A stretch of DNA of 40,700 bases from Polyangiaceae bacterium (lineage in GTDB: Bacteria; Myxococcota_A; Polyangia; Polyangiales; Polyangiaceae). This document shows positions 25,567 through 40,700 of the stretch, piece by piece (the first letter of the stretch is position 1; each line of letters opens with the position of its first letter). The notes below the pieces were generated by a model, which was given only the letters and a program-made list of their open reading frames with translations, did not search any database and was not told where the DNA came from. The stretch lies in NCBI GenBank assembly GCA_020846005.1, contig JADLEQ010000119.1, forward strand, positions 1 to 40,700, in the 5' to 3' direction. The position numbers were made by a program, and so were the translations under genes.

Positions 25567-25635
25567 GCCGCGCCCGGATTCGGCGCGCTGCAGCCCCCGG
25601 TGGTCCAGGAGGTAGCGGTCGGCTATACCCACGCC

Positions 25636-27225
25636 ATGGCACGTCGCTTCGTCGCCGGCGGGTTCCTCGGGCTCGCGCTCGCGTCGTCTGGGTGTCTCGG
25701 TCGCTCGGGGCTCGATGATCCGCTCCGAGTCGACGGCGGCGGGAGCGGCGGCGCTGCGGCGGCGGACGGAGGCGTGTCCGGAGGCGCCGGCGGCGCGAGC
25801 GGGCTCGGTGGAGGCGGCGCGGGTGGGGTCGGCGGGGGCGGCGGCCTCGGTGGCCTCGGAGGGGGCGGCTTCGCCGGCGGCGGGACGGGCGGCTTCGCCG
25901 GCGGCGGGACCGGCGGCGGTGGCGGCTCGCCGGGCTGCGGTCCGTGCGCCGGCTGCTGCGATGGCTCCGGGATCTGTCGCGACGGCACGAGCACCAACAC
26001 GTGCGGGCTCGACGGCGTCACCTGCTTCGACTGCGGGGCGCTCGGCCTCGGCTGCGCGGACGGCTCCTGCGAGGGGCCGCCGCCGACGTGCGGTCCCGCC
26101 AATTGCGGCGGCTGCTGCGACTCGACGGGCGAGTGCCGGCTCGGCGTCGACGCCGACGCCTGCGGCAAGGGCGGCGGCAAGTGCTCGGACTGCACCGACA
26201 CCGGGCGATCGTGCCAGGCGGGGAAGTGCGAGGCCGAGCCGCCGCCGCCCTGCGGCCCCCAGAGCTGCTCGGGGTGCTGCTCCGCCGGCGGGGTGTGCCA
26301 GGCGGGGACCTCGGACTTCGCGTGCGGCTCGGCCGGCGAGGCGTGCGAGTCGTGCGCCGTGAACGGCCGCGAGTGTACGCAGCCTGGCAGCTACTGCGCG
26401 TTCTTCCCGACGTGCGGGCCGTTCAGCTGCCCGTCCGGGTGCTGCGCGGCGTCCGGGCAATGCCTCGTTGGCCAGTCGGACTCCGCGTGCGGCGACGGCG
26501 GCTCGGCCTGCCAGGACTGCGCCGCGAGCGGGCAAACCTGTGCCCCGCAAGGGTTCTGCTACTCCGGGCCGTCGTGCGGGCCGCACAACTGCGCGGGGTG
26601 CTGCACGGCGACGGGCGAGTGCCGCCCGGGCAGCGCCAGCCAGAACTGCGGGCAATATGGCGCCCTCTGCGATAACTGCGGCGCGAAGGGCCAGACGTGC
26701 CAGGGGCAGGTGTGCAGCAGCGGCTCCACCTGCCCCAAGGCGTGGGCGGGCTGCAACCCCTCGCTCTCGACCCCGCCGCCCAAGCAGAGCACGAGCTGCA
26801 CGCCCACCGTCCTCGCCGAGGTGCGGGCGCGCTGCGACGAGTCGGGGTCGGACGACGAGTGCGGCGACTGGTTCGGGCAGCTCCTGCAGTCGAACCCCCT
26901 CTGCTACGACTGCCTCACGCAGTTCGCTACGGAGCGGGCCGTCGTCCGCTGCGTCGCGCCGTACCTCTCGCCCGACTGCAACCACGCGCTCTCCTGCGCC
27001 GTCGAGTGCGGCAACGAGAGCTGTGGGAGCTGCCCGGAGTCCGAGCAGGACGCCTGCTCGGACAAGGCGTTCGAGGGTCAGGGCCAATGCCGCCCGTGGG
27101 TGCAGGGGTACTTCTGCCTCCAGGCGGCGTACTCGGGGCCGGCGAGCTTCTGTGACTGGGACTCCTACGGGGGCAGCTTCGGCGCCTGGCTCGCGGGAGT
27201 CGGGGCCGAGTACTGCGCGCCCTGA
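25636..27225 (+). CDS. Cys-rich repeat lipoprotein
   Basis: 529 residues from ATG at 25636; an in-frame GTG at 25600 would leave the signal peptide internal. The lipobox is ASSGC. A stalk of about 75 Gly-rich residues follows. Residues of about 110-380 hold five Cys-rich units of roughly 50-60 residues, each CGPxxCxGCCxxxGxCxxG, then ACGxxGxxCxDC and GxxCxxGxC, so about ten Cys per unit, probably disulfide-bonded. The last 150 residues form a different Cys-rich domain (CYDCLTQFATERAVVRC, CNHALSCAVEC) that resembles Cys-rich C-terminal domains common in myxobacterial surface proteins. It is presumably displayed at the surface. The function is unknown. Confidence 0.85.
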   Translation: MARRFVAGGFLGLALASSGCLGRSGLDDPLRVDGGGSGGAAAADGGVSGGAGGASGLGGGGAGGVGGGGGLGGLGGGGFAGGGTGGFAGGGTGGGGGSPGCGPCAGCCDGSGICRDGTSTNTCGLDGVTCFDCGALGLGCADGSCEGPPPTCGPANCGGCCDSTGECRLGVDADACGKGGGKCSDCTDTGRSCQAGKCEAEPPPPCGPQSCSGCCSAGGVCQAGTSDFACGSAGEACESCAVNGRECTQPGSYCAFFPTCGPFSCPSGCCAASGQCLVGQSDSACGDGGSACQDCAASGQTCAPQGFCYSGPSCGPHNCAGCCTATGECRPGSASQNCGQYGALCDNCGAKGQTCQGQVCSSGSTCPKAWAGCNPSLSTPPPKQSTSCTPTVLAEVRARCDESGSDDECGDWFGQLLQSNPLCYDCLTQFATERAVVRCVAPYLSPDCNHALSCAVECGNESCGSCPESEQDACSDKAFEGQGQCRPWVQGYFCLQAAYSGPASFCDWDSYGGSFGAWLAGVGAEYCAP

Positions 27226-27237
27226 GGCCGACCACCG

Positions 27238-28365
27238 ATGGGGCGCCACGGCTACGAGGAGGTCCTGCTCGTCACGGGGTTCCCGAGCTTCCGCGGGAGG
27301 AAGCTGGTCGAGCACCTCCTCACGACGCACCCCCGCGCGCTCGTCCACGCGGTCGTGCACACGAAGCTCGCGGCCGCGGCCGAGGAGGCGGTGGGCCGGC
27401 TCGAGTCGAGCGCGAGGGAGCGGCTGGTGCTGCTCGAGGGGGACGCCGCGGCCATCGATCTCGGGCTGAGCGGCGGCGAGTACCGGGCGCTCGCTGGTGA
27501 GATCGACTGCATCCACCACGCCGCCCAGGTGACGTACCCGGGTGTGAGCCGCGACATGGCGGAGCAGGTGAACGTGGGCGCGATGCGCGAGGTGATCGAG
27601 CTCGGCCGCGCCTCGGCCGGGCTGCGCCGGCTCGTCGTCCACTCGAGCGCGACGGTGAGCGGAGATCGCGAGGGCCTCGTGCTCGAGGAGGAGCTGGCGG
27701 CGGGGCAGCACTTCCGCACGCCGGTCGAGGAGACGCTCGCGCGCGCGGAGCGTATGGCTCGCCGCGCGATGGCCGAGCTGCCGATCACCGTGATCCGGCC
27801 CACCCAGATCGTGGGGGACTCCCACACCGGGGAGGTCGACCGCTTCGACGGCCCCTACCTGCTCATCCTCTTGATCGTGTCGAGCCCGGAGGAGATCCCG
27901 GTGCTCCTGCCGACGCGCGGCGACTTCCCGATCAACCTCGTCCCCATCGACCACGTCGTGCGAGTGGCCGACGTGATCGCGCGCAGCGACGCCGCCGTCG
28001 GGCGCACGTTCCACGTCGCCGATCCGCGGCCGCTGAGCGCGCGGCGTGTCTTCGAGCTCGTGGCGGAGGCGGGCGGGCGCCGCCTGCCGCAGAGCTTCCT
28101 CCCAGCGGGGCTCACGCGGGCCCTCCTCAACGCGCCCGGTCTCCGCGCGGTCGCGAAGAGCCCGCGCGCCTTCCTCGAGCTGATGGCGACGCCGGTCACC
28201 TGGGACGCGCGCGGGACGCGGGAGCTCCTGGCCGGCAGCGCGCTCGCGTGCCCGCCGTTCGAGTCGTACGTGGACGCGCTCGTCGCGTACGTGAAGCAGC
28301 GCATGGAACAGCGCCGGCACGAGCGCGCCGCGCCCCCGGGAGAGCCTGAGGATCCGCTTGCCTGA
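27238..28365 (+). CDS. Extended SDR / thioester-reductase-like protein, degenerate active site
   Basis: 375 residues, ATG at 27238, 12 bp after the previous stop. The Rossmann start is LLVTGFPSFRGRK; family members usually have TGFPGFIGR, so one Gly is Ser. CIHHAAQVTYPG and VNVGAMREVIELG match the NAD-binding_4 group, and VVHSSATVSG is the active-site strand. The catalytic YxxxK is not there: the aligned segment TPVEETLARAERMARRAM has Val for Tyr and Leu for Lys. IRPTQIVGDSHTGEVDRFDGPY is the usual substrate-side motif. It may bind a nucleotide or acyl partner without reducing it. Context suggests lipid metabolism with the acyl-CoA synthetase. Confidence 0.85.
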   Translation: MGRHGYEEVLLVTGFPSFRGRKLVEHLLTTHPRALVHAVVHTKLAAAAEEAVGRLESSARERLVLLEGDAAAIDLGLSGGEYRALAGEIDCIHHAAQVTYPGVSRDMAEQVNVGAMREVIELGRASAGLRRLVVHSSATVSGDREGLVLEEELAAGQHFRTPVEETLARAERMARRAMAELPITVIRPTQIVGDSHTGEVDRFDGPYLLILLIVSSPEEIPVLLPTRGDFPINLVPIDHVVRVADVIARSDAAVGRTFHVADPRPLSARRVFELVAEAGGRRLPQSFLPAGLTRALLNAPGLRAVAKSPRAFLELMATPVTWDARGTRELLAGSALACPPFESYVDALVAYVKQRMEQRRHERAAPPGEPEDPLA

Positions 28366-29743
28366 GCCTCCGGGAGCCGCGCGGCCGTCGAGCGCGTGGC
28401 GCTCGGTCGCGCTCGCGGCGGCGGGCGCCGTGCTCGCGGTGACGTGCTCCGGGGCGCGCCTGGTGCCGGGCCGCGCGCCGTCCGCGGCGGCGGCGTCCGA
28501 GGCGAGCGCGCCGAGCCGCGCGCCGGCCGTCCCGAGCGCTGCGCCCCCCGGCGCGAGCGCCGCCTCCAGCGACGCCGTGGGAGCCGGCGCGAGCGCGGCC
28601 GCCAGCGTGGCGCCGCCGGCGAGCGCGGCGGCGGCGATCGTGCCGCCCCCGGCGCGATCTGGCCCGCTCGCGCGCTTCCAGCGCCGCCTCGACGAGCTGC
28701 GGAGCGGGGCCGCGCGCCGCCCATTGCGTGTCGCCTGGCTCGGGGACTCACACACCGCGGCCGACTTCCTGACGGACGCGGTCCGCGTGGCGCTCTGGCG
28801 GGAGCACCCGGCGGGCGGGCCCGGCTTCCTGCCGCCCGGCATCGACGGCGTCCGCCACGCGCGGGCGTCGATCGCGGTGCGCGGGAAGGTGGAGGTGGAG
28901 CCCCGCGAGCGGACGAGCTCGGAGCGCCAGCTCGACGGCGCCTTCGGCCTGCTCGGCCTCCGCGGCGTGCCCGCGAGCGACGACGCGCGCGTCACGCTCA
29001 CCCCGACGAGCGGCGCCGGGGCCCTCGCGTGGGAGCTCAGCTACCGGGCGCCTGCCGGGCGCTTCCGCGTCCGCTACGCCGGGCACGAGCGGGACGTGGA
29101 CGGCTCGAGTGGATCGGCGGACGCCCAGGACCGCACGCTCCGGCGTCTCCGCTTCGAGGCGCCTGCGGGCGTTGGCGTGGAGCTCGGCGGCTTCCGCGGG
29201 CGGGTCGAGCTGCTCGGCGTGGTGGTCGAGGCGCGCGATCCGGGCGTCGTGCTCGACACGCTCGGCATCAACGGAGCCCGCGCCACGACCGCGCTCGCGT
29301 GGGACGAGGCGCACTGGACGGCCGAGCTCGAGCGCCGGGCGCCCGCGCTCGTCGTGCTCGCGTACGGCACCAACGACGTGGCCTCGAACCTCGCCCTCGA
29401 TCGGTACCCGGGGCAGTACGCGAGGCTGCTCGCGCGCGCGCGCAAGGCCGCGCCCGGCGCCGACTGCCTGCTCGTGGGCCCGACGGACCTCGGCCGTACG
29501 GACGGCACCGCGCACCCGCGCACCGAGCCGCTCGACCGGACGCTCCGCGGCGTCGCCGAGGCCGAGGGCTGCGCGTGGTTCAGCCTGTACGACGCGATGG
29601 GCGGCGCGACCGGCATGAGCGACTGGCTCGGCCACGATCCGCCCCTCGCGGCGCGCGATCGCGTCCACCTCACCGCGCGCGGCTACGAGCGCCTCGGAGC
29701 CGCGCTCGGCGCGCTGCTGCTGGGCGCGCCGCGCCCGGAGTGA
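28358..29743 (+). CDS. SGNH/GDSL hydrolase, membrane-anchored
   Basis: 461 residues from TTG at 28358, which overlaps the previous gene by 8 bp. TTG is chosen because GAGG stands 6 nt before it and an export signal follows directly. The hydrophobic N-terminus (SVALAAAGAVLAVTC) is followed by about 55 residues of Ala/Ser/Pro linker. The catalytic blocks are LGDSHTAADF (nucleophile Ser131), AYGTNDV (about 337-340, oxyanion Asn) and DRVHLT (Asp434, His437), so the triad is intact. The GDSHTxxDF form occurs in esterases that act on cell-wall or surface polysaccharide acetyl groups; the substrate here is an inference. It is the last gene before ssrA. Confidence 0.87.
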   Translation: MPEPPGAARPSSAWRSVALAAAGAVLAVTCSGARLVPGRAPSAAAASEASAPSRAPAVPSAAPPGASAASSDAVGAGASAAASVAPPASAAAAIVPPPARSGPLARFQRRLDELRSGAARRPLRVAWLGDSHTAADFLTDAVRVALWREHPAGGPGFLPPGIDGVRHARASIAVRGKVEVEPRERTSSERQLDGAFGLLGLRGVPASDDARVTLTPTSGAGALAWELSYRAPAGRFRVRYAGHERDVDGSSGSADAQDRTLRRLRFEAPAGVGVELGGFRGRVELLGVVVEARDPGVVLDTLGINGARATTALAWDEAHWTAELERRAPALVVLAYGTNDVASNLALDRYPGQYARLLARARKAAPGADCLLVGPTDLGRTDGTAHPRTEPLDRTLRGVAEAEGCAWFSLYDAMGGATGMSDWLGHDPPLAARDRVHLTARGYERLGAALGALLLGAPRPE

Positions 29744-29865: not shown

Positions 29866-30210
<345 letters not shown>

Positions 30211-30228
30211 TAGTTTTTCCGACCTTTC

Positions 30229-31383
30229 TTACTGATTTTGTCCGTTCACCGCCTTGGTTGCCATCAGGTTGCCATTGGCGGTCGTGCCTCGGTCGCCGAC
30301 GTGGCGATCGAGCGTGCGCACCGCGTCCCGGCGAACATCCGGGGAGAGGTGCGCGTAGCGCATCGTCATCTCGATCGAGGCGTGGCCGAGCAGCTCCTGC
30401 ACCGCCTTGATCGGCACCCCGCGCATCACGAGGTGCGACGCGAAGCTGTGCCGGAGCACGTGCCAGCCGACGAGCCGAAGCCCGGCGAGCTTGCACGCCC
30501 GCCAGAGCGGGTGCTTGCACTCGCCCTTGGTGAGCAGGCCACCGCCCGAGCCCGCGAAGACGAGCTCGCCGCGCAGATGCCGGTGCGCCTTCAGCGCCCG
30601 CAGGACGGTGTCGCCCAGGGGGATTTCCCTCGGCTTGCCGCTCTTCGGCGTCGTGACGACGCCGCGCGAGACCGCGCGCCGGACCATGAGGCGCCCGGCC
30701 ACCAGATCGACTTCCTCCCAGCGCAGGGCGAGAAGCTCACCCTGACGGAGCCCGCACTTGAGGCCCACGATGATCATGGGCCGCCAGTCCGGATCCGCTG
30801 CCGCGACGAGGCGCTCGGCCTCCTCGAAGTCGAGGAAGTCGAACTCGGGCTCGGGCGCCTTTAGCCACTTGACCTGTGGCACGACGCCGAGCTCGCCCCA
30901 CTCGACCGCCACGGCGAGCGTCCGCCGGAGCACGGTCAGGTGGTTGTTGACGGTCTTCGCCGCGAGCTTCTCCTCGAGCTTCTTCGCCTTGTACGCCTCG
31001 ATCTCCTTGACGCCGATCGCGTCGACCTTCGACCGGCCAAAGGCGGGGACGAGATGGAGACGAAGGATCGCCTCCTTGGTTGCGGCCTCGCTCGGCTTGT
31101 TGTTGGTCTGCACGTACGTCGCCTCGAACTGCTTGGCGAACGCCGCGAACGTCGGCGTCTCCTTCTTGTTCGTCACCTCCTTGTTCTCGTCCGTGCGGAC
31201 CCCGAGCAGCAGCTCGCGCCTGAGCTCGCGCTCGTAGCGCTCCGCTGCGCGACGGTTCTGCAGGGGCGCGACCTTGCGGATGCGCTCCCGTTTGCCGTCG
31301 GGGTGTTCCACGAACACGTCGATCATCCAGTACTCGGATGCCGGGCCGTTGCGGTCCCGGCGCTTGACTCGCCTCACGCTCAT
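30229..31383 (-). CDS. int: Tyrosine recombinase / integrase
   Basis: 384 residues. ATG at 31383 is preceded by GGAGGATCCG and overlaps the upstream stop as ATGA. An N-terminal arm-binding-type region (1-60, EYWMIDVFVEHPDGKRERIRK), a core-binding SAM-like domain (about 78-172, TFAAFAKQFEATYV) and the catalytic domain are all present. The catalytic set is complete: R213 (GLRQGELLAL), K247, H308 and R311 (HVLRHSFASH), H334 (LLGHAS), and the nucleophile Y343 (MRYAH). It should insert and excise the element at ssrA. Confidence 0.96.
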   Translation of the reverse strand: MSVRRVKRRDRNGPASEYWMIDVFVEHPDGKRERIRKVAPLQNRRAAERYERELRRELLLGVRTDENKEVTNKKETPTFAAFAKQFEATYVQTNNKPSEAATKEAILRLHLVPAFGRSKVDAIGVKEIEAYKAKKLEEKLAAKTVNNHLTVLRRTLAVAVEWGELGVVPQVKWLKAPEPEFDFLDFEEAERLVAAADPDWRPMIIVGLKCGLRQGELLALRWEEVDLVAGRLMVRRAVSRGVVTTPKSGKPREIPLGDTVLRALKAHRHLRGELVFAGSGGGLLTKGECKHPLWRACKLAGLRLVGWHVLRHSFASHLVMRGVPIKAVQELLGHASIEMTMRYAHLSPDVRRDAVRTLDRHVGDRGTTANGNLMATKAVNGQNQ

Positions 31384-31601
31384 CGGATCCTCCGTGAACG
31401 CGGGGCGTGTGCTTGGGTGCGGAGCCACTCTAGCACTGCGTCGCGCGAGATCCGGATGCTGCGACCGACGCGGCGGGCCCCAGGAATGTCACCCCTCGCG
31501 ATCGCGGCGTAGGCGGTCTTCCGCTCGACGCGCAGGAGCGCGGCCAGCTCGTCGACGGTCAGGACCGACGGCAACGCGGCGGGGTCTTCTGCTTCGATCA
31601 T
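31380..31601 (-). CDS. Excisionase-like MerR/HTH_17 DNA-binding protein
   Basis: 73 residues from ATG at 31601; the ribosome site is weak, and a GTG at 31709 in frame is a less likely start. The body is one winged helix-turn-helix of the excisionase type: LTVDELAALLRVERKTAYAA, then IPGARRVGRSIRISRDAVLEW. It overlaps int by ATGA, so the two are made together. It probably bends DNA for excision or controls int expression. The 181 bp upstream (31602-31782) show no gene. Confidence 0.88.
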   Translation of the reverse strand: MIEAEDPAALPSVLTVDELAALLRVERKTAYAAIARGDIPGARRVGRSIRISRDAVLEWLRTQAHAPRSRRIR

Positions 31602-31782
31602 GGGTTCGACTTGCGGGTCCAGGGAGCGCCGACGACCGGCGCGAGAAAGTGGAGGAGCGACGGCACCGCCGATGACGCTCGGGCGGCACGCTTCACTGGC
31701 CAGGTGCACGGACGGCTCAACCGACCCCGGCGCACCGCCACTCCTCCTGGACGGAGGCTCGGCTCGCGATCTTCCGTCAGCT

Positions 31783-32112
31783 CTACGTTTCGGCCCGTCG
31801 CGGGTAGCGCCTGCGACGTTGGCGCTCGAACTTCTTGACCGCCTTCGCCGAGTGCTGCGACGAGAGATCCCACATGCCGGGCGCGGTGCGGATGAACGTG
31901 TCGGAGAGCTCGAGCGTCTGTCTCACCTTCGCCTGCCAGTACTTGCGTCCTCTGGTCTTCGGGTGCGGCTCGATGAGCTCGTAGAGCTTCGAGAGCGGCG
32001 CCGGAGGGTGGCAGCGGATGAGCGCTTTCAGGACGATCGTGAACCAGGTGTCTTGCCTCTTCGCGTTCTTCCAGATGCCGCGCGCGGTCTTGGGCTTCTC
32101 GTTCGTGTGCAT
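31783..32112 (-). CDS. Small hypothetical protein, possible winged helix
   Basis: 109 residues from ATG at 32112, stop TAG. A GTG at 32163 in the same frame would add 17 residues. The N-terminus is Lys-rich. The middle (WFTIVLKALIRCHPPAPLSK and then KVRQTLELSDTFIRTAPGMW) has the rhythm of a winged helix like those in the HARE-HTH or Mrr N-terminal group, where the final strand reads F.R...G.W.L. The C-terminus is very basic (KKFERQRRRRYPRR). DNA binding is a reasonable guess, not a family call. Ordinary amino-acid use supports a real gene. Confidence 0.65.
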   Translation of the reverse strand: MHTNEKPKTARGIWKNAKRQDTWFTIVLKALIRCHPPAPLSKLYELIEPHPKTRGRKYWQAKVRQTLELSDTFIRTAPGMWDLSSQHSAKAVKKFERQRRRRYPRRAET

Positions 32113-32397
32113 AGGTTTGGAGCCGGGGTCGGCCCCGCCGTGCACGGCCCGTGTGCGAGCCACCGAGAGCTTCGGATCGCGAGCGTCACCTCCTTCCTTC
32201 TTGAGGCGCCCCGAGGGGGCGCGTCGCTCCGCGGCGCGCGAACGGCGCGCACGCATGAACCAATGCCGAAAACGGCTTGAAGGCGCCCCTCTGGCGGCGG
32301 CCCAAGGCCGCGCAATCACGCTCGATCCGCTCAGTGGCAGTGCCCCAGCCGCAGGGGCAGGCGGAAGGGCAGTCGCAAGGGCGGTTGTCGTGCGACG
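32113..32397 (-). promoter_or_regulatory. Gap with hairpin and strong Shine-Dalgarno sequence
   Basis: 285 bp without a convincing gene. On the minus strand, a 7-bp perfect stem with 3-nt loop (32206-32222, arms GCGCCCC and GGGGCGC) is followed by AAGGAGGTGA (32186-32195), a full match to the 16S tail. The nearest in-frame start, GTG at 32163, is 22 nt away, too far for normal use. Confidence 0.4.
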
Positions 32398-33249
32398 TCA
32401 CCGCGACACCTCGTGAGACGCCGGCACGAGTGCGGCAGCGTAGCGGACAGCCTGCCCTCGCGGCGTCTCGGCGATCTCCGTCGCCGTCGCGAAGATCTGA
32501 CCCAGGGCGCCCACCGCTCGGACGTGACCGAGCTCGGCGAGAAGCCACAGCGCGCCGCCGTCGCGGTCGACGATGGCGCCGGCAAGCGCGCGGACTCGGA
32601 CCTCGGACATCGCGAAGCACGCCGGCCGCCACGTGCCCGGCGCCGCGCCCCAGCACTTCTGGCCGCTGCGCCAGAGCTGCACGGTCTCCGCGACCTTCAT
32701 GGCGAACACCGACCTGCCCTCGGTGCCCGTGTCGACCTCAACGACAAGCACCAGCCGGCCAGCAGGCGTCGTCAGCTCGACCAGCGCGTCGGGAACGTAC
32801 GCGGGCGGCCGCGGCCCGGCCGCGCGCCGGAGATCCAGATCGGCATGGAAGGCGCCGACCGAGAGGCCGACGTTCCGGCGGGCGGCGAGCACGAGCTCGA
32901 CCCGCAGGTCGTTCAGTGCCCGGAGGTGGTCGTCGATGTGGCGCCCCACGCGGCTCCGGTGCAGCTCGTTTGGGTCCGCCCCCGCCGACTCGAGCAGCGC
33001 GGCGCCGGACGCCGTGAGCAAGTAGATGTTGGGCGCGGACTGCTCGCACACACGCACGTCGAGAAGGCGAAGTGCGACGAGCTTGCTCAGGCGGCGCGTC
33101 GCCACGCTTCGCTCGGTGAAGAACAACCTGCAGAGCTGGTCGGTGGTCGCCTGGCCCATCCGGGCGACGGCGTAGATGATCTCGCGGTCGCGCCTTGTCA
33201 CCTCGTAACGGCGCGCCCTCGGGCGCTCGGCCCGGCCACGGCGAGCCAT
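32398..33249 (-). CDS. Replication-relaxation-like protein
   Basis: 283 residues; ATG at 33249 overlaps the upstream stop as TGATG. A very basic N-terminus leads to a winged helix (about 15-80: VTRRDREIIYAVARMGQATT, QLCRLFF, RRLSKLV). A region with HIDDHLRALNDLRVELVLAA and AYVPDALVELTTPAGRLVLVVEVDTGTEG follows; the D and ExD pattern is like a nuclease-type beta core. This order matches the Replic_Relax group (PF13814) of plasmids and integrative elements. Those proteins are thought to help in replication or DNA opening; the biochemical role is poorly known. It is the last gene of the operon. Confidence 0.75.
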   Translation of the reverse strand: MARRGRAERPRARRYEVTRRDREIIYAVARMGQATTDQLCRLFFTERSVATRRLSKLVALRLLDVRVCEQSAPNIYLLTASGAALLESAGADPNELHRSRVGRHIDDHLRALNDLRVELVLAARRNVGLSVGAFHADLDLRRAAGPRPPAYVPDALVELTTPAGRLVLVVEVDTGTEGRSVFAMKVAETVQLWRSGQKCWGAAPGTWRPACFAMSEVRVRALAGAIVDRDGGALWLLAELGHVRAVGALGQIFATATEIAETPRGQAVRYAAALVPASHEVSR

Positions 33250-33578
33250 CACCGACCTCGCAGCAGCGGGTTCGTGACGCTCATCCCGCAGCTCGGGCAC
33301 TCGACGTGGCCGGCCCATGCCGAGCACACCGAGCACCGCCAAGCCCAGCCCAGCGTTCGCGCGCGGCAGTTGCTGCAGCTGAACGATCCGTACTGCTCGA
33401 CGTCGGTGTGGCACCACGGACATGTCGTTGCCGGCGCAAGCGCGCGGCGGGCGCGATGCAGACGCCGGACAAGAAGCACGACAGCCACGGCAAGCACGAC
33501 CAGGCCGACGACCCAGCCGACGGAGGCGTACAGGACGACGGCCGTCACGATCACGGCCAACCGAAACCAGCGCTTCAC
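33249..33578 (-). CDS. Membrane protein with double zinc ribbon
   Basis: 109 residues from GTG at 33578, overlapping the ATPase stop as GTGA. One long hydrophobic stretch (about 7-37, probably two helices or a hairpin) is followed by two or three CxxC pairs: CPWC and CSNC, CSVC and CPSC. These form treble-clef or zinc-ribbon knuckles on the cytosolic side. It is likely a small accessory protein of the operon machine. I recognise no named family. Confidence 0.75.
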   Translation of the reverse strand: MKRWFRLAVIVTAVVLYASVGWVVGLVVLAVAVVLLVRRLHRARRALAPATTCPWCHTDVEQYGSFSCSNCRARTLGWAWRCSVCSAWAGHVECPSCGMSVTNPLLRGR

Positions 33579-35239
33579 GGCACGTCTCCCTGTCGACCCC
33601 GCCCGCGGGCTCGACCGACCACATCCGGCGTCGGAGCGGCGCCGGCCCGACGTCGTCCAGACACCTCCTCGGAGCCGGCTTGCGCAGCGAACCGAGCGGC
33701 AGCCTCCTCCTCGATCCGGCGAACGCGGACCTCGAGCTCCGCGCGAGGCACGCCCGAGGTGCCGCGCTTCACGGCCTCCGCCACGGCGGGATCGATCGCC
33801 GACCACTCGGGCGGGTCGTGGTCGGGCGCGCGGATGACGCGCGCTGCGAAAGGTGCGCGCCGGTCGGCGACCAAGAAGGCCCGAGGCGGAAGGCGACCCA
33901 GCTCGGCGATCCTGAATCGCTGCTCCTCGCCCTCGCTCAGGAACGTGGCTTCGCGTCCGCGCGAGCCAGGCTCTCGCGGGCGCGGAACGCGGCCGGTCCG
34001 CGGCAACCATTCCGACGACGCAGCCGCGTCGCGCTCCGAGCTGCGCCCGATGACGCGCCACGCGACGTTGGTGTTGAGGATGTTCTGCAGCTCGCTCGGG
34101 AGCTGCGTTGCGCCTTGGTGCAGCAGCAGTAGGCCACCGGCACCGAACGATCGCCCGAGCGTAACGAGCCGCTCGAACTGCCCGAGCGTGACCGCGGTCA
34201 TGATCGTCTGCGGCTCGTCGACCACGATGAGCGTCGTGCTCCTCACCGCGCGCCGCGGATCGAACGCGGCATTCGCGAGCGCGGAGACGGCGAGGCTCCC
34301 CATCGCGCGCACGCCGGCGCGCGCGCCGAGGTCGGCCCCACCGAAGTCGATCGTGGTGATGGCGCCCGGCTCGAAGCACGCCGAGAAGTCGAACGGGCGC
34401 GGCCCGGAGAGAATGGCCTTCAGGCTCGGCACCCGCAGCAGCGAGTCGAGTCGGGCAATCAGGCCGTCGATCGACCCCTGCGGCTCTCGCTCGAACCGCG
34501 CCAGCGCCAGGCGCACCGAGGGAAGCGACGACTCGGCCGCCATCGCCGCCACGTTGCGCGCCGACGAGAGGACCCACGGCCAGGCGGCGGCATCGATCTT
34601 TTTCTCCACGGCCAGCGCGGCGAAGGCCGCGAGCGACGAGCGTTGGCGCGGTCCCGTCGTCGCGTCGGCGGAAACGTCGGTGAGCGTCTCGGCGAACAGG
34701 TCCGCCTGCGTCACGATCGACACGCCCGGCATCGGCACCAGCAGCGGAAACGACGGCAAGTACTGCCGGTCGAAGAACCGGAGCGTGTGCACGCGCGCGA
34801 GAAACGGGGCGCGCGCGCTGGGCGACAGGTGTCCCGCGATCGCCGCGATGGTGCGGAGCTGCTGGTCGCCCGTCTCGCCTTTGCCGTCGAGCAGCACCAG
34901 GGCGATGGGTGCGCCCTCGACGATCGCCGCCATCACGCGCGCCATAAGGGCTCCCGCAAAGCGGGATTTCCCGGCGCCGGTTCCCGCCGTCGCCCAGCCG
35001 GGCAGCGAGGCGATCTCGTCGACGGCCATCCTATAGGGCACGCCCGTCGCGCTCGTGCCGATGACCACGTGCGGCATGCGTTCGAGCTCGTCCATGCGCA
35101 CGCGAAAGCGGCGTTCATCGGCTTGAAGATCTCGTTGCAGCTCCGCGCGCGAGGCGACCTGACTCGCCTCCGCGAGGCGGCGCTCGCGAGGGCGGTCGTG
35201 CCCGGCCAGGCGGAGCACCCAGTCGGGCATGAACGTCAC
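33575..35239 (-). CDS. VirD4/TraD-like DNA-transfer ATPase
   Basis: 554 residues from GTG at 35239, overlapping the upstream stop as GTGA; ATG at 35230 is the alternative. Walker A is GTGAGKS (86-92) within LPGWATAGTGAGKSRFAGAL, Walker B is LIVVDE (337-342), and LLLHQGATQL (about 371-380) fits the sensor motif seen in coupling proteins and FtsK/HerA ATPases. The N-terminal part lacks the two membrane helices usual for TraD, but small membrane proteins are encoded on both sides and could supply the anchor. The C-terminus is charged and basic. It probably moves DNA, or docks DNA to a channel. Confidence 0.82.
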   Translation of the reverse strand: MTFMPDWVLRLAGHDRPRERRLAEASQVASRAELQRDLQADERRFRVRMDELERMPHVVIGTSATGVPYRMAVDEIASLPGWATAGTGAGKSRFAGALMARVMAAIVEGAPIALVLLDGKGETGDQQLRTIAAIAGHLSPSARAPFLARVHTLRFFDRQYLPSFPLLVPMPGVSIVTQADLFAETLTDVSADATTGPRQRSSLAAFAALAVEKKIDAAAWPWVLSSARNVAAMAAESSLPSVRLALARFEREPQGSIDGLIARLDSLLRVPSLKAILSGPRPFDFSACFEPGAITTIDFGGADLGARAGVRAMGSLAVSALANAAFDPRRAVRSTTLIVVDEPQTIMTAVTLGQFERLVTLGRSFGAGGLLLLHQGATQLPSELQNILNTNVAWRVIGRSSERDAAASSEWLPRTGRVPRPREPGSRGREATFLSEGEEQRFRIAELGRLPPRAFLVADRRAPFAARVIRAPDHDPPEWSAIDPAVAEAVKRGTSGVPRAELEVRVRRIEEEAAARFAAQAGSEEVSGRRRAGAAPTPDVVGRARGRGRQGDVP

Positions 35240-35634
35240 GACTCCGGTTCCTCGGGCTGCGCCGCGAGCCGGGGACGCTCCCGCGTCCGTGCGCGGTCGA
35301 GAGCATCGGCCTCGCGACGGGCATGTTCTCGGCCGCGCAGCCGGCGCCGCAGAAGGAAGATGGCCAGCGCGACGTGCCCCAGCACGAACGGGACCACGCT
35401 CCATCCGGAGATCGTGGTCCCGCCCGTGGGGGTGCTGTTCATCGACGCGCAGGCGCGCATGAGCATGGCCGTGACCATCGGCAGCACGACCAGCCCCAGC
35501 AGAAGAACCGCCGCCGACATGCGCAAGAGGCGGTCACGCGCACCGCGCCAGCCGACGATCCACGAGAGCCCGGCGAGCGCCAGGCCGAGTACGGCGACAC
35601 TTCCGAAGAGCTGACCGATCTGGGCCATGGCCAT
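35236..35634 (-). CDS. Small three-helix membrane protein
   Basis: 132 residues from ATG at 35634 (second ATG at 35628 possible), 20 bp after the previous gene. Three hydrophobic helices are visible: IGQLFGSVAVLGLALAGLSW, AAVLLLGLVVLPMVTAM and VVPFVLGHVALAIFLL. A charged C-terminal tail of 35 residues (RRRLRGREHARREADALDRA) should be cytosolic. Its size and helices recall pilin-like or channel subunits of transfer systems, but there is no diagnostic motif. Confidence 0.72.
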   Translation of the reverse strand: MAMAQIGQLFGSVAVLGLALAGLSWIVGWRGARDRLLRMSAAVLLLGLVVLPMVTAMLMRACASMNSTPTGGTTISGWSVVPFVLGHVALAIFLLRRRLRGREHARREADALDRARTRERPRLAAQPEEPES

Positions 35635-35654
35635 CTCGCTGTGCAACGGGTCGA

Positions 35655-36746
35655 TCAGTCGGTCGTCATCACCGGGTTGCGCGTCGAGAGCGTTTCGCGC
35701 TCCGCGCGCCTGAGGGCCGCCGCGGCGACCATCACGAGCTCGACCATCGCGGCCTTCTGCTCGGCCTGATCCATCGGCGTGTTCGCGCTCCTTCGTGCGT
35801 TCGCCGCGTCCTGCTCGGCGGCGCGAGCGACGGCGAGGGCCTGAGCCTTCTCCTGTGCCTCTACTGCGGCGCGGTTGATGGTGTCCGTGCCGTGGACCGT
35901 CACGCGCTCGTCGCTGCGGCGACGAACCAGGTGGAATCGCACGCCCTCCGGCGTGACCTCGGCCACCACGAACTGGCTGCCGCGACGGATGGGCCACGTC
36001 GGGTTCGAGACGACCTCGTCCGCCAGCGCGGCGGTGTCGGACCACGACGGGCGCACCACGATGTGCAGTCCAACCGTGCGCTGCCCGTCGCTCGTCGCCT
36101 CGAAGACGTTCGTCACCGGCTCGACGCCCGCGGCGATCTTGCTGAGGTTCGCCCGCGTGTGCTCGGCGAACCAGGCGCGGATGGCGGGCTCGGCGAGCGC
36201 GTGCGCGGGGTCGGCGCCGGTCCCGAAGATGCCCGCAGACGCGTTCCGCTCCGAGACGGCCGCGATCCGATCGAAGAAGGCGAACGCGGCCTCGCGCGCG
36301 ACACCATCGCGGGGCTCGAGGGCGAGCCTGACCGCCCAGAGCCGCCCCGACGGCAGCTTCAGCATCATGTAGGCGAGCACCGCGCGGTTGAAGTTCTCGA
36401 CCGCGTGCAGCGCGCTGGCGACGGCGCTCGCCCGGTCGAGGTTCAGCACCACGGGCGCCGTCGCGTCGATGTCGCCCGACACGAGCGCGTCCTCGATCCG
36501 ACCCTCGATGGCGCGCGCGATGATGCCGCGGCCCTCCGCCTCCTCCTGCGTCGCCAGTGCGCGACCCGGGGCGGGATCGATGTAGTACGGAATGACCTGC
36601 GCGCCGCTCGATTCGAGATTGAAGTCGACGAACGCGCGCATGTTCTCGCGCGCGCCGCGGTGCGCACCGCCATTCAGTACCGTGATCACCTTCTTCGGCT
36701 TCGGCGGCGGGCCGACGATGTTGTTCTGGACGTTGTAGTTCGACAT
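35655..36746 (-). CDS. Operon protein with ParA-like start lacking a P-loop
   Basis: 363 residues; ATG at 36746 has GGAG upstream. After an Asn-rich start (MSNYNVQNNIVGPPPKPKK) comes VITVLNGGAHRGARENMRAF and, 20 residues on, QVIPYYIDP. The pattern strand, loop, helix, strand, DP resembles ParA/MinD ATPases, but the loop has no GKT/S, so nucleotide binding is not expected. The middle is a mixed alpha/beta domain. The C-terminus (about 290-345) is an Ala/Glu/Arg-rich helix, probably a coiled coil. I do not recognise a family. Position between two membrane proteins suggests a structural role in the same complex. Confidence 0.72.
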   Translation of the reverse strand: MSNYNVQNNIVGPPPKPKKVITVLNGGAHRGARENMRAFVDFNLESSGAQVIPYYIDPAPGRALATQEEAEGRGIIARAIEGRIEDALVSGDIDATAPVVLNLDRASAVASALHAVENFNRAVLAYMMLKLPSGRLWAVRLALEPRDGVAREAAFAFFDRIAAVSERNASAGIFGTGADPAHALAEPAIRAWFAEHTRANLSKIAAGVEPVTNVFEATSDGQRTVGLHIVVRPSWSDTAALADEVVSNPTWPIRRGSQFVVAEVTPEGVRFHLVRRRSDERVTVHGTDTINRAAVEAQEKAQALAVARAAEQDAANARRSANTPMDQAEQKAAMVELVMVAAAALRRAERETLSTRNPVMTTD

Positions 36747-36843
36747 GGTCTTGTTCTCCGGCTTGTTGTTCTTGTTGGTGGGGTTGGTGTTGAACGTCTT
36801 GCCCTGGTAGTCGCCGTCGCTCGCCTTGCACGCGGCGTGATCT

Positions 36844-37689
36844 TCAGCGTGGCGCCTTCGCGGTCTCGAGCTTGTGCTCGGTGCGATACAGGGCACGGCG
36901 GCGGGCGGCTTCGGCGTCCCACTCGGCGGCTGCACGCGCGATCCGATCCACGGTGGTCTGCGCCTTCAGCTGGTCTCGCTCTGCCTTTCGAAGCCGGCGG
37001 CGCAGCGAGCGCACGAGACGCGATGCCGCACGGGAAGGTGCGCGATGTCGGATGAGCCACTCGGTACACCACGCGGGCCCGAGCGACATGACGACCATGA
37101 TCGCGGCGTTGCCCAGCGCTTCGACCTGCGACGTATCCTCGTCGGCGGCGCCGTACAGGCGCACGACGGTGATGGCGCCGATGAAGATCGCGTACGCCAC
37201 GTACAACACGAGGCTCCAGACGGAGCGCTTGACGACGTTGACGGTGTTCGAGATGCCGTCGCTCGGTCGGAGCGGCGACCCTGACTTCGGGAGATTCCGA
37301 TGCGCGACGGCCGCGGTGCTGCCGATGATGGCGACGCTCAGCATGAGGCTCACCGGGACACGCGCGGTGGGCGATTGCACGAGCGTGCTCGCGATCTGCA
37401 TCGCGCCGAACCACTCGAACAGAACCATCAGGCCGATGCCGATGTTGTAGAAGAGGGGCGCCGTGTGGTCGTCGCGCGTGTCCTCGGCGCGCGTGAGATC
37501 CTCGTTGGCCTCGTCGATGCGGTGACGCTCCGCGAGGGTCGCGACCGCGCGCCCGTACTCGGGGTTCCGAGCGGCGTCAGGCTCAGGTCGCGGGCCGAGC
37601 TCGCCGATGATCCGATCTTCTGCGGAATCCAGGCCCGCGCGTGCATCGCGACGCGCGCCTGAAGTAACGGTCCAATGTTTGAAGATCAT
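36844..37689 (-). CDS. Four-helix membrane protein with C-terminal coiled coil
   Basis: 281 residues; ATG at 37689 overlaps the stop of the lipoprotein gene (ATGA). An N-terminal polar domain of about 75 residues contains acidic and basic heptads. Four hydrophobic helices follow: FYNIGIGLMVLFEWFGAM, VPVSLMLSVAIIGSTAAVAH, SVWSLVLYVAYAIFIGAITV and AIMVVMSLGPAWCTEWLI. The last 60 residues form a charged coiled coil (RRRLRKAERDQLKAQ). It is a plausible inner-membrane scaffold for the operon. No family is recognised. A 97-bp gap follows, the largest inside the operon. Confidence 0.75.
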   Translation of the reverse strand: MIFKHWTVTSGARRDARAGLDSAEDRIIGELGPRPEPDAARNPEYGRAVATLAERHRIDEANEDLTRAEDTRDDHTAPLFYNIGIGLMVLFEWFGAMQIASTLVQSPTARVPVSLMLSVAIIGSTAAVAHRNLPKSGSPLRPSDGISNTVNVVKRSVWSLVLYVAYAIFIGAITVVRLYGAADEDTSQVEALGNAAIMVVMSLGPAWCTEWLIRHRAPSRAASRLVRSLRRRLRKAERDQLKAQTTVDRIARAAAEWDAEAARRRALYRTEHKLETAKAPR

Positions 37690-38513
37690 CGCGCTGCCTC
37701 CTTCGGCGCGTCAGCGCCGTCCTGGTCTTGAAGGTCTGCGGGACCCGACACGATGCGCACGGTTGCGGCACCAGATCCGCGCAGCGCGGCCGTCCAGAGC
37801 TTCCGCACCCTGATGTCCCGGTCGATGGACACGATGCACCCGCGACCCGGAACGCTCGTGCTGGTCACGTACGAGAACGTGACGTCGACGCCGGTGAGTA
37901 GTCCCGGCGTGAGCAGGCTCAGCCGGCGCAGCAGCGCGGCGAACTGCGCGTCGCCCGGGACGCGACCACACTCGAAGTCGCCCAGCGACGACACCTCTCT
38001 CGCGTCGGTGAGCACGATGAGCTTGCGCGGCAAGCTCCCCGCGTCGGCGAGCGCGATCTTCGTGACGCTCTCCGCGATGGGGCTGCGCCGTACGCTCGGC
38101 GCCTCGAAAGCGGTCGCGGCCCCGGAGAGCAGCACGTCGCGCGCCGACGCGGCGATCTTCGCGGTCTGGGCGCGCCGTGAGCGCTCCGAGCCCCGCTTCA
38201 CCGCGGGGATGGTCTGCTCAGCGACGGCCACCGTCTTGTCGACCGTCGAGCCCATCATCCAGATGCGAACGTGCGAGCCGGGCCGATCGACGACAAAGGC
38301 CAGTACGCGTTCGAGAGATTCCAAGAGCGACTCGCGCGTGCAGGTAGAGCCCGAGCTGCGATCGCAGACGATCTCGATGAACACGGCCGCCTTCACCGGC
38401 TCGTCGCAGATGCCCAACACCTTGCAGGTTTGGTCGACGCCGTCGCAGCCCGTCGTGAAGAGCGCGACGAGCAGCATCGCGATCAGCACGGCGCTCAATT
38501 TCACGTTGCTCAC
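37686..38513 (-). CDS. VWA-like lipoprotein, first gene of the transfer-like operon
   Basis: 275 residues from GTG at 38513 (TTG at 38519 possible; neither has a strong ribosome site). The signal ends in LFTTGC, a good lipobox, followed by a small Cys cluster (CDGVDQTCKVLGIC). The rest looks like a VWA or similar Rossmann domain: AVFIEIVCDRSSGST, where the usual DxSxS is degenerate, VRIWMMG, and KLIVLTDAREVSS. It probably sits in the outer or inner membrane facing the periplasm. It begins the seven-gene minus-strand operon; the 74-bp upstream gap holds a direct repeat. Confidence 0.75.
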   Translation of the reverse strand: MSNVKLSAVLIAMLLVALFTTGCDGVDQTCKVLGICDEPVKAAVFIEIVCDRSSGSTCTRESLLESLERVLAFVVDRPGSHVRIWMMGSTVDKTVAVAEQTIPAVKRGSERSRRAQTAKIAASARDVLLSGAATAFEAPSVRRSPIAESVTKIALADAGSLPRKLIVLTDAREVSSLGDFECGRVPGDAQFAALLRRLSLLTPGLLTGVDVTFSYVTSTSVPGRGCIVSIDRDIRVRKLWTAALRGSGAATVRIVSGPADLQDQDGADAPKEAAR

Positions 38514-38558
38514 CAGCAACGTTCTACGCCCGCGGACCGGGGCATAAGCGTTGGCTAA

Positions 38559-38575
38559 AACGTCGGAAACGTCGG
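38559..38575 (-). promoter_or_regulatory. Direct repeat AACGTCGG x2, candidate operator
   Basis: Two identical 8-mers at 38559-38566 and 38568-38575, repeating every 9 bp, in the only gap (38514-38587) between the regulator gene and the seven-gene operon. Near-helical-turn direct repeats are the usual binding pattern of OmpR-type winged helices, and the neighbouring gene encodes one. The link is an inference. Confidence 0.45.
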
Positions 38576-38587
38576 CTGGTGTCGCGG

Positions 38588-40015
38588 CTACGCGCTGGGC
38601 AACCTGCGGGCGTCCCGTGCGAGGTGATATCCGCCATCGCGGCCGCGGACGGTTTCGATCAGCTCACCCTTCCGCAGCTTCAGCGTCTTGCGCAACACCT
38701 GAACGGCGCTTCGGACCGCGCCGTCCGAGACCTTCTCGCCCGCACGCGCCAGCTCCGTCGAGCTCACGCTTCCGTGCTCGGCGAGATGTCGCAGCAACAT
38801 CCAGGCACGCGCTGAAAGGTGAACCGTGTCGCCGGTCGTCCGGTGCCTTGCTACCTCCGCGACCACGTCGAGCACGTACTCGCGCGTGTACAGGATGATC
38901 GACCCTAGGATGTGCTGCCGAAGCGCCTCGACGGTCGTGGCCGCGTTCTCAAGGTGGTGCGCGCGCATGGCGGGTTGGGCCGCGTAGATGCCGGTCGCGG
39001 ACAGCTCCCGCGCGGCGGCCAGCGCGCGAGCGGTGAGATCTGCGCCGCGCTCATCGCGGATAGCGCGAAAGATCTCGTTGAGGCCGTCTAGCACCTCACG
39101 CCAGATATCGGCATGAGCGTCCAGCACGACCCGTGGCTCTGTGGGAAGGTGGCCGAGCACTTCGCGGTACAGGCCGAGCGCTTCATCGTGGCGCCCTTGG
39201 AGCAACGCGAGGCGTGCGCGATCATGGGCGAGAAACAGGGCGCCGCGGCGCACGGTCTGCGCGAGCGGCGCAGCGTCGGCGATTGCTGCGGCGGCGCCAT
39301 GCCAGTCCTGCCGCTGCATATGGTGACGAGCGAGCCTTCGATGTGCGGCGAAGAGCAGGTCCGGGTCGCCCTTCGGGTCGCCCTTCACGAGGGCGATCGC
39401 CTCGCGCTGGAGCTTCACGGCCAGCGCGACGTCGCCGAGCACCTCCTCGACGACGGCAAGCCGCGACAGGGCGTTCGCTCTGACGTGGGCGGTCGGGGCG
39501 TCCGGTCCCTCTGCTGGCTGGCCCGCTTCCCTGAAGTACCGGCGCGCCTCGGCGTAGTCGCCGAGCTTGCTCAAGGCGGTGGCCAGCTCGAGGCGTACGT
39601 GCGCCTGCTTGGCAGGGGTGGGTGCGTAGTCCAGGGCACGCGCGTACCACGCAACCGCTGCGCGATGGTCGGCTCGGATGTCCGACAGGTATCCGGACAC
39701 GAGTAGCGTGCGCATCGCGGCGTCCGGCGCGACTGCAAACTCGTCGGACAGCGCTAGCGCCTCGTCTGCGGCTCTACGCGCGCCCAGCGAGTCGTCTGTC
39801 ACGAAGAGACACCACGCCTCGCGTGCCTTCCACATGAGCAGCACCGCCCCGACGGGTTTCTCGTCCAGTGCTGCTCGCGTGCACGCGAGCAGCTCGGTCC
39901 AGTTCCGCTCGCCTTCGAGGCGCACGCCGAGCGCGGCGAGGGTCTCGATCGCGTCACGCGGCCCGCTGCCGGGAGGCGCGGGCGACGTTCGGCGCGGTCG
40001 AGGTGGACGGTTCAT
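38588..40015 (-). CDS. TPR protein with C-terminal OmpR-type DNA-binding domain
   Basis: 475 residues, ATG at 40015. Residues of about 25-350 are helical TPR-like repeats (AAVAWYARALDYAPTPAKQ, LGDYAEARRYFREAG and others). The last 85 residues are a winged helix of the Trans_reg_C type: VHLSARAWMLLRHLAEHGSV, SSTELARAGEKVSDGAVRSA, and IETVRGRDGGYHL. This domain usually sits behind a receiver or at the N-terminus of SARP-like regulators; here it is C-terminal after TPRs, with no phosphorylation domain. It likely senses a peptide or protein and controls the operon behind it and perhaps the divergent gene. Confidence 0.85.
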   Translation of the reverse strand: MNRPPRPRRTSPAPPGSGPRDAIETLAALGVRLEGERNWTELLACTRAALDEKPVGAVLLMWKAREAWCLFVTDDSLGARRAADEALALSDEFAVAPDAAMRTLLVSGYLSDIRADHRAAVAWYARALDYAPTPAKQAHVRLELATALSKLGDYAEARRYFREAGQPAEGPDAPTAHVRANALSRLAVVEEVLGDVALAVKLQREAIALVKGDPKGDPDLLFAAHRRLARHHMQRQDWHGAAAAIADAAPLAQTVRRGALFLAHDRARLALLQGRHDEALGLYREVLGHLPTEPRVVLDAHADIWREVLDGLNEIFRAIRDERGADLTARALAAARELSATGIYAAQPAMRAHHLENAATTVEALRQHILGSIILYTREYVLDVVAEVARHRTTGDTVHLSARAWMLLRHLAEHGSVSSTELARAGEKVSDGAVRSAVQVLRKTLKLRKGELIETVRGRDGGYHLARDARRLPSA

Positions 40016-40205
40016 GGTGGTTCTGATCCATCAGGGCATCGCGCGCGCACTTGTTCGTCAAGCTGACCTCGGGCGTGCACGCCCGCCAGCGCCTATTTGG
40101 GGCGCTCGACGTCTTCGGCTCGCCCTGCGCCTCGTCGCGGCGCCATCACGGGGCGGCCGGCGCCTCTTTTCACCCTCCGATCGACCACGTACACTCGAAG
40201 AATCT
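40016..40205. promoter_or_regulatory. Divergent intergenic region
   Basis: 190 bp between the regulator gene (-) and the GmrSD-like gene (+), holding both promoters. A perfect ACACTCGAAGAATCT stretch before the plus-strand ATG shows no ribosome site. No gene or clear motif was found. Confidence 0.35.
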
Positions 40206-40658
40206 ATGAAAGCCACCGAGGCAAAGCTGCTGGACTTCTTGAAGAAGTCGCCTCAGTTCGTCATCCCGATCTACCAGCGCACCTACTCGTGGACGGCGAA
40301 GGAATGCCAGCAGCTCTGGGACGACATCGTCCGCTCCGGCGAGAACGACAACGTCACCGTCCACTTCGTCGGCTCCATCGTCTACGTCGAGAAGGGGCTT
40401 TCGCAGGTCAGCCACCAGGCACCGCTGCTCGTGATCGACGGTCAGCAGCGGCTCACGACGATGACGCTGGTGCTGGCCGCGCTGGCGAACGCGCTCGGCG
40501 ACGCTGAACCCGTGGACGGGTTCTCGGCCCGCAAGCTCCGCAATTACTACCTACTGAACCCCGAGGAGGCGGGCTGTGCGCGCGCCGGCTGGTTGATGGC
40601 GATGCACGCCGACTCGGTGATGGGCGTCTCGCCGGCGAGCACCCTGCGCGCGGCGTGA
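40206..40658 (+). pseudogene. Truncated GmrSD/DUF262-type restriction gene
   Basis: 150 codons from ATG at 40206 to TGA at 40658. Residues of about 18-120 match the N-terminal DUF262 domain of GmrSD-type (type IV) modification-dependent systems: FVIPIYQRTYSWTAKECQQLW, HFVGSIVYV, and LLVIDGQQRLTTMTLVLAAL with the nucleotide-handling DGQQR motif. Family members are several hundred residues long and continue with more conserved sequence after the YYLLNPEEAG point. Here similarity by eye stops at residue 123 (about 40575) and unrelated, more GC-rich sequence leads to a stop. It is a remnant, or a solo N-terminal domain. Confidence 0.75.
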
Positions 40659-40700
40659 TGGCCATCGGGGCGAGCGCGGCCTCGGCGCCAGCTCGACGCC
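40575..40700. other. Sequence after the GmrSD break
   Basis: The 126 bp after the apparent break have no start-to-stop gene I can recognise on either strand. A minus-strand frame reads ARRVLAGETPITESACIAIN and could be the end of an unrelated gene entering from the right; this is weak. It may mark a recombination or insertion joint. Confidence 0.3.

Follow-up and report, generated by a model that had tools for sequence, protein, structure and literature searches.

A candidate DNA-transfer operon with a MOBC-like relaxase and a coupling-type ATPase in an integrative element of Myxococcota

The operon and its proposed role

The 40,700-nucleotide contig JADLEQ010000119.1 of a Polyangiaceae bacterium (assembly GCA_020846005.1), here called the window, is an entire contig (C119) of a 119-contig draft genome and ends at position 40700. 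On its minus strand, from 38513 to 32398, it carries seven open reading frames (ORFs) in series, which are probably a DNA-transfer module, of whatever kind, belonging to a small integrative element. The gene order is lipoprotein (P1), four-helix membrane protein (P2, TM4), P3, three-helix membrane protein (P4, TM3), ATPase (P5), zinc-ribbon membrane protein (P6) and Replic_Relax protein (P7). Four of the six junctions overlap (ATGA, GTGA, GTGA and TGATG). The two that flank P3 do not, and are gaps of 97 nt between TM4 and P3 and of about 20 nt between P3 and TM3. A preliminary description of this DNA had reported a seven-gene operon with mostly overlapping junctions at this place, and both statements held.

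In the mechanism that we propose, the winged helix of P7 would bind a putative origin and a PD-(D/E)XK-type site in the same protein would cut there. The processed DNA would be taken and pumped by P5, a ring ATPase of the VirD4/HerA type that would have the separate TM3 as its anchor and P6 as an adaptor. The lipoprotein, TM4 and P3 would form a dedicated envelope complex, from which the proposal of export without a VirB4-type channel follows.

A MOBC-like relaxase

Judging from its sequence relationships, P7 (32398..33249, minus strand) is probably a relaxase of the MOBC family. It matched PF13814 with 65.6 bits (cut-off 25.3), 21 of the 22 members of the P7 alignment matched the same family, and phrog_9381, "replication initiation by nicking", matched P7 with an E-value of 7e-7. 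PMC5357655 lists PF13814 as the MobC relaxase superfamily in streptococcal integrative mobilizable elements (IMEs), where it accompanies VirD4 coupling proteins, and PMC12479173 likewise gives it as a MOBC relaxase family. As a direct test, every ORF of the MOBC-typed plasmid pAM373 was scored with the window-family profiles. The P7 family profile picked the replication-relaxation protein, which is the relaxase of this plasmid (E = 6.7e-8, next best 0.48) and shares a gene neighbourhood with the coupling protein. The CloDF13 relaxase was not recovered with the P7 family profile. The preliminary description had seen no relaxase in the operon, a statement contradicted by the membership of P7 in PF13814 and by the retrieval of the pAM373 relaxase.

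The structural model of P7 (predicted local distance difference test, pLDDT, 91) matched MarR-type winged helices over residues 16-92 (Z about 10). An N-terminal winged helix is also present in TraX of pAD1 (PMC12857230). In the alpha-beta domain after the winged helix, D154 and E171 were invariant and D173 nearly so, and the order of strands and helices fits a PD-(D/E)XK core, with only a weak fold match, to the restriction enzyme PaqCI (E = 0.02). MOBC relaxases are akin to PD-(D/E)XK restriction endonucleases (PMC12857230). From the family literature, the conserved acidic residues and the strand and helix order of the model, the nuclease domain of P7 is predicted to be of PD-(D/E)XK type.

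The motor and its membrane partners

P5 (33575..35239, minus strand) is judged from its motifs, its family and its structural model to be a divergent motor of coupling type in the FtsK-HerA/VirD4 superfamily. It has the Walker A motif GTGAGKS and the Walker B motif LIVVDE, and within its family of 25 members TrwB_AAD_bind was detected in 14 and TraG-D_C in 10. The ATPase family profile picked the coupling protein of pAM373 (E = 2e-20) and, in the CloDF13 mobilisation region, one ORF (E = 4e-11). A nucleotide-binding domain is the defining motif of coupling proteins (PMC7431656). The P5 model (pLDDT 89) matched VirB4, DndH, TrwB and HerA at nearly tied scores (Z 22-24, TrwB Z 22), and SIR2-HerA and DUF4297-HerA were also among its fold matches. 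The alignment with TrwB, of 388 residues, was among the longest, and a helical block of P5 (residues 175-290) lies between strands as in TrwB and may correspond to the all-alpha domain that coupling proteins have inserted in the nucleotide-binding domain.

An N-terminal membrane domain is found in most coupling proteins and is required by MobB of CloDF13 (PMC7431656), whereas P5 has no N-terminal transmembrane helices. The TM3 gene (P4, 35236..35634, minus strand), recognised from its sequence and from the loci of relatives, overlaps the ATPase gene and may supply the membrane domain that P5 lacks, as a separate anchor. On the other side of P5, the zinc-ribbon protein P6 (33249..33578, minus strand) has a membrane segment and eight cysteines, seven of which were invariant in 13 relatives.

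Lipoprotein, TM4 and P3

From sequence and family profiles, P1 (37686..38513, minus strand) was identified as a lipoprotein with the lipobox LFTTGC. Its VWA-like motif pattern (D-x-S/T and TDxRE) was found by eye in the alignment. TM4 (P2, 36844..37689, minus strand), characterised in the same way, has a C-terminal part that is coiled-coil-like. P3 (35655..36746, minus strand) has no recognised fold, and the alignment of its relatives contains a conserved GAxRGxR motif and an NPVLTTD-like C-terminal end. No significant Pfam, NCBIfam or PHROG match was obtained for P2, P3 or P4, and none of the libraries searched contained a match to P3, the lipoprotein or the transmembrane proteins. P3 had been described as a P-loop-less ParA-like protein. 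It does lack a P-loop, but kinship to ParA is not supported, as it had no significant match in these three libraries. The idea that P3 is a degenerate E1/ThiF protein, which came from its position in the operon, was rejected (hhalign probability 0.1).

Conservation in other Myxococcota

A first search with the ATPase recovered relatives in 7 other genomes among 379 Myxococcota, and with a profile, strong relatives (E < 1e-80) were detected in about 13 of the 290 genomes of the class. The loci were read and all of their ORFs were then scored with family profiles, which gave a core family of 17 loci. In all of them but L057 the ATPase gene had the zinc-ribbon gene as its direct neighbour; in L057 the latter was found about 1 kb further on. 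Replic_Relax was near the ATPase wherever the contig was long enough. Lipoprotein, TM4 and TM3 genes were found upstream of the ATPase in the window, L060, L019, L059 and L017. TM4 and TM3 were also present in L061 and L015, the TM3 assignments for L015 and L057 being weak. A search based on P3 added L112 and L113. The complete order of lipoprotein, TM4, P3, TM3, ATPase, zinc-ribbon, Replic_Relax and integrase was found in the window, L060, L112 and L113. This recurring order shows that the operon is a conserved unit, beyond chance. Recurrence beside integrases in other Myxococcota, the check proposed in the preliminary description, was therefore found for the full order in three further loci and for the core in about 17.

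An integrase was located within about 12 kb of the module in every core locus for which enough contig was read to find one. The integrases of L017, L019 and L018 adjoin tRNA genes, L112 lies at tRNA-Ala and L113, like the window, at tmRNA. Attachment (att) repeats of 12-13 bp were sought for L017, L019, L112 and L113, and none was found in the stretches fetched. In L018, part of tRNA-Leu (CAAAATCCGGTGG, 1671-1683) recurs 86 bp on (1757-1769), between the tRNA and the integrase, and may be an att core or a remnant of one.

Distances between ATPases were correlated with those between Replic_Relax proteins (Mantel r = 0.84, P = 2e-4, 18 loci) and between zinc-ribbon proteins (r = 0.73, P = 2e-4, 15 loci), but not with those between integrases (r = 0.09, P = 0.17). 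The Mantel test leaves host phylogeny in, although the integrase, under the same phylogeny, showed no correlation. Since the ATPase, Replic_Relax and zinc-ribbon proteins co-diverge and the integrase does not, we conclude that they form one co-evolving module that is exchanged among integrases. On contig C67 of genome G233, two ATPase/Replic_Relax/integrase elements of different subgroups (L016 and L063) were found within about 30 kb, which suggests accretion.

Relatives were not found by tblastn of plasmid and phage records, by a scan of viral contigs or by a scan of genome contigs with P5. The scan of genome contigs with the pair alignment detected a single locus, on a contig of G535, labelled as a Myxococcaceae metagenome-assembled genome.

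Genes of ubiquitin-like conjugation were observed directly upstream of the ATPase at L058:11156-14321, L057:11410-14655, L054:9631-11569 and L055:6244-7964. These four sets comprised E1/ThiF (3e-32), Prok-JAB (1e-6) and E2-like genes, with a YukD-like ubiquitin in two.

The integrative element and its borders

The operon belongs to an integrative element whose insertion site is the 3′ end of the tmRNA (ssrA) gene, which was located with ARAGORN at 29866..30210 on the plus strand. A tyrosine integrase gene (30229..31383, minus strand; PF00589, 2e-30) lies 18 bp away from the tmRNA gene. It is accompanied by a gene for a small excisionase-like helix-turn-helix protein (31380..31709, minus strand), recognised by reading of the sequence with no hidden Markov model run. 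The 3′-terminal 22 bp of the tmRNA (TTCGATTCCCGGCGCCTCCACC, 30189..30210, plus strand) form the attL core. Exactly one further copy was found in the 5.7-Mb genome, on contig C11 of the same assembly (G000:C11:105063-105084, minus strand). This exact second copy, the attR, lies 695 bp from the end of C11 in the orientation expected, and the BLAST match is longer, covering 28 bp at 96% (E = 1e-5). Because of the exact att repeat on C11, the element is taken to span 30189-40700, an unassembled gap and then the right end on C11. It thus has the integrase and the att sites by which an IME is recognised.

The element was lower in GC content (69.5%) than its left flank (74.3%) and C11 (76%). In a genome of the same genus (G480) the tmRNA had no integrase gene in the 1.4 kb left on its contig. 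In a synteny check of whether C11 follows the tmRNA in relatives, none of the 19 other genomes searched had a homologue of the C11 flank gene, and the downstream region in G480 was different.

Beyond 40700 the element was readable only for its final 695 bp, on C11. This right end (L085:19086-19780) contains two small ORFs, one of which resembles, by reading, the C-terminal part of a trypsin-like protein. Short tandem GATCGACCCA repeats adjoin the attR core there.

The question of a channel

VirB4 was tested with PF03135 and PF19044, for which positive controls were detected. It was found in none of the 15 element-bearing genomes (0/15), and just 6 genomes of the 285 Myxococcota passed the PF19044 cut-off. 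The assembled part of the element showed no channel genes. The observation in the preliminary description that no VirB-type channel was visible was therefore upheld and extended from the operon to its hosts. We regard a transfer module with its own exit, or with one independent of VirB4, as the best explanation, though at slightly less than even odds. Self-sufficiency in the full sense is more doubtful. Such a VirB4-independent conjugation machine would combine a MOBC relaxase, a coupling ATPase split into motor and TM3 anchor, and an envelope complex of P1, TM4, P3 and the zinc-ribbon protein, with the ubiquitin-like set replacing the envelope part in some lineages. ComEC was present in 13 of the 15 element-bearing genomes, and uptake through the competence system, as in Thermus transjugation, would be possible in principle.

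Several observations weigh against export by a dedicated, VirB4-independent module. A VirB4 of divergent sequence may be overlooked by the profiles PF03135 and PF19044, and the genomes are draft assemblies. The element itself is incomplete, with a contig break at 40700, and its unassembled part could contain a channel gene. P5 itself had no significant Pfam match, and its fold ties between VirB4, DndH, TrwB and HerA. Whole-model fold searches of P7 gave no strong PD-(D/E)XK match, the matches being filled by the winged helix, a result that still permits this fold. Finally, the lipoprotein/TM4 pair is not universal, as it was not found in L054, L055, L057 and L058, where the ubiquitin-like conjugation genes occupy that upstream place.

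Alternative explanations

The same relaxase and coupling protein could instead serve a classical IME, whose DNA exits through the type IV secretion system (T4SS) of a visiting helper plasmid or integrative and conjugative element, as with CloDF13 and the streptococcal MobC/VirD4 IMEs, the membrane proteins only docking the motor to that channel. We consider this a tentative but serious possibility. An own VirD4 is characteristic of MOBC elements, and this is a known mobilizable layout (PMC5357655, PMC5704250, PMC7431656); the few mobilizable plasmids that have a VirD4 of their own encode MobC as well (PMC5704250). The lack of channel genes in the element is as expected for such a passenger, and its integrases are freely exchanged, as described for IMEs. 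Against a helper channel stand the 15 hosts without VirB4 and the scarcity of potential helpers in the phylum implied by the PF19044 counts, as well as the several dedicated envelope proteins that are ordered with the motor and exceed the needs of known MOBC IMEs.

Two further explanations place the operon outside DNA transfer. In one of them, P7 would initiate replication of the excised circle, and the copies would be moved or partitioned by P5 at the membrane. The name of PF13814 (Replication-relaxation) and the match of phrog_9381 to P7 would suit such a replication or maintenance module, and initiators of rolling-circle replication overlap functionally with relaxases (PMC5357655). We nevertheless find it improbable, since replication has no need of the lipoprotein, TM4, TM3 and zinc-ribbon membrane proteins, since the motors of this family fall with coupling proteins, and since both genes of the pair have their match in a MOBC plasmid, as relaxase and coupling protein. 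It appears very improbable that the element carries a defence or competition device, in which a HerA-like ATPase would work with a PD-(D/E)XK nuclease in the manner of the anti-phage HerA-nuclease complexes. PADLOC models did not match P1, P2, P3, P5, P6 or P7, the module is an element backbone beside integrases that co-diverges as a unit, and PF13814 is a relaxase family. These points outweigh the presence of SIR2-HerA, DUF4297-HerA and DndH among the fold matches of P5, and of E1-like genes, of the kind listed by PADLOC as E1-E2, upstream in some relatives.

Comparison with known systems

A relaxase with its own coupling motor is the plan of MOBC mobilisation. In CloDF13 (MobB/MobC), the streptococcal MobC/VirD4 IMEs and pAM373/pAD1, as in the window, a PF13814/MOBC relaxase with a winged helix is found beside an own VirD4-type ATPase, and the streptococcal elements are also integrase-borne. 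The window differs in that its motor has no membrane domain of its own, the motor gene overlapping with a separate TM3 gene, in that its integrase is a tyrosine instead of a serine enzyme, and in that the hosts of its family lack VirB4. We know of no counterpart of the zinc-ribbon membrane protein, the lipoprotein, TM4 or P3 in MOBC modules. The operon had been presented as a candidate for an undescribed membrane DNA-handling machine. A DNA-handling role still seems apt, but the combination of relaxase and own VirD4-type coupling protein follows a known layout, and what is new is the proposed separate membrane anchor, the conserved set of lipoprotein, TM4, P3 and zinc-ribbon protein, and the occurrence in hosts without VirB4.

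ICEth1 of Thermus thermophilus, a small integrative element of roughly 15 kb at a tRNA 3′ end with a XerC-type integrase, sets a precedent for transfer that depends on an FtsK-HerA ATPase and involves no T4SS (PMC5365140). Its FtsK-HerA ATPase TdtA is required for DNA donation in transjugation and has a nuclease partner (PMC5365140). Unlike P5, TdtA is partnered by NurA and a restriction enzyme and not by Replic_Relax, and a comparable set of lipoprotein and membrane proteins has not been described for ICEth1. In actinobacterial systems of the pSAM2 type, DNA is moved by a single FtsK-type motor, TraB, and no VirB channel takes part; these systems are discussed in PMC5365140 too. The DNA moved by TraB is double-stranded and no relaxase is required, whereas the module of the window includes a protein of a relaxase family and partners in the envelope. 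Defence ATPases of the HerA-nuclease and Dnd types (SIR2-HerA, DUF4297-HerA, DndH) share superfamily and fold with P5, from which the window is set apart by its relaxase-family partner, its backbone position beside integrases and the lack of a PADLOC match.

Transfer elements of Myxococcota have been little described, and a literature search yielded no study devoted to them. The ATPase, zinc-ribbon and Replic_Relax genes beside an integrase now provide a marker for this family, and they raise the question by what route an element equipped with relaxase and coupling motor moves when its host has no VirB4. If self-transfer is true, the module would represent a further T4SS-free route of DNA export beside Streptomyces TraB and Thermus TdtA.

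Neighbouring genes

Between Replic_Relax and the integrase lies the gene of a small conserved protein, P8 (31783..32112, minus strand), with homologues in L019, L054, L055, L058 and L061. It is kept in at least 6 loci and is possibly a winged-helix protein, with a weak Forkhead match in Pfam (0.0023) that was under the cut-off. To the left of the element, a 1626-codon ORF on the minus strand (24121-29001) covers genes of the opposite strand and is apparently a high-GC artefact, not a gene. At the other end of the window, a DUF262-like gene (40206-40658, plus strand; by reading) is interrupted by the contig end, and the final 80 bases or so resemble an assembly artefact. Directly upstream of the operon and on the same strand, 38588-40015 encodes a TPR-rich protein with, by reading, a C-terminal OmpR-like winged helix, possibly a regulator of the operon.

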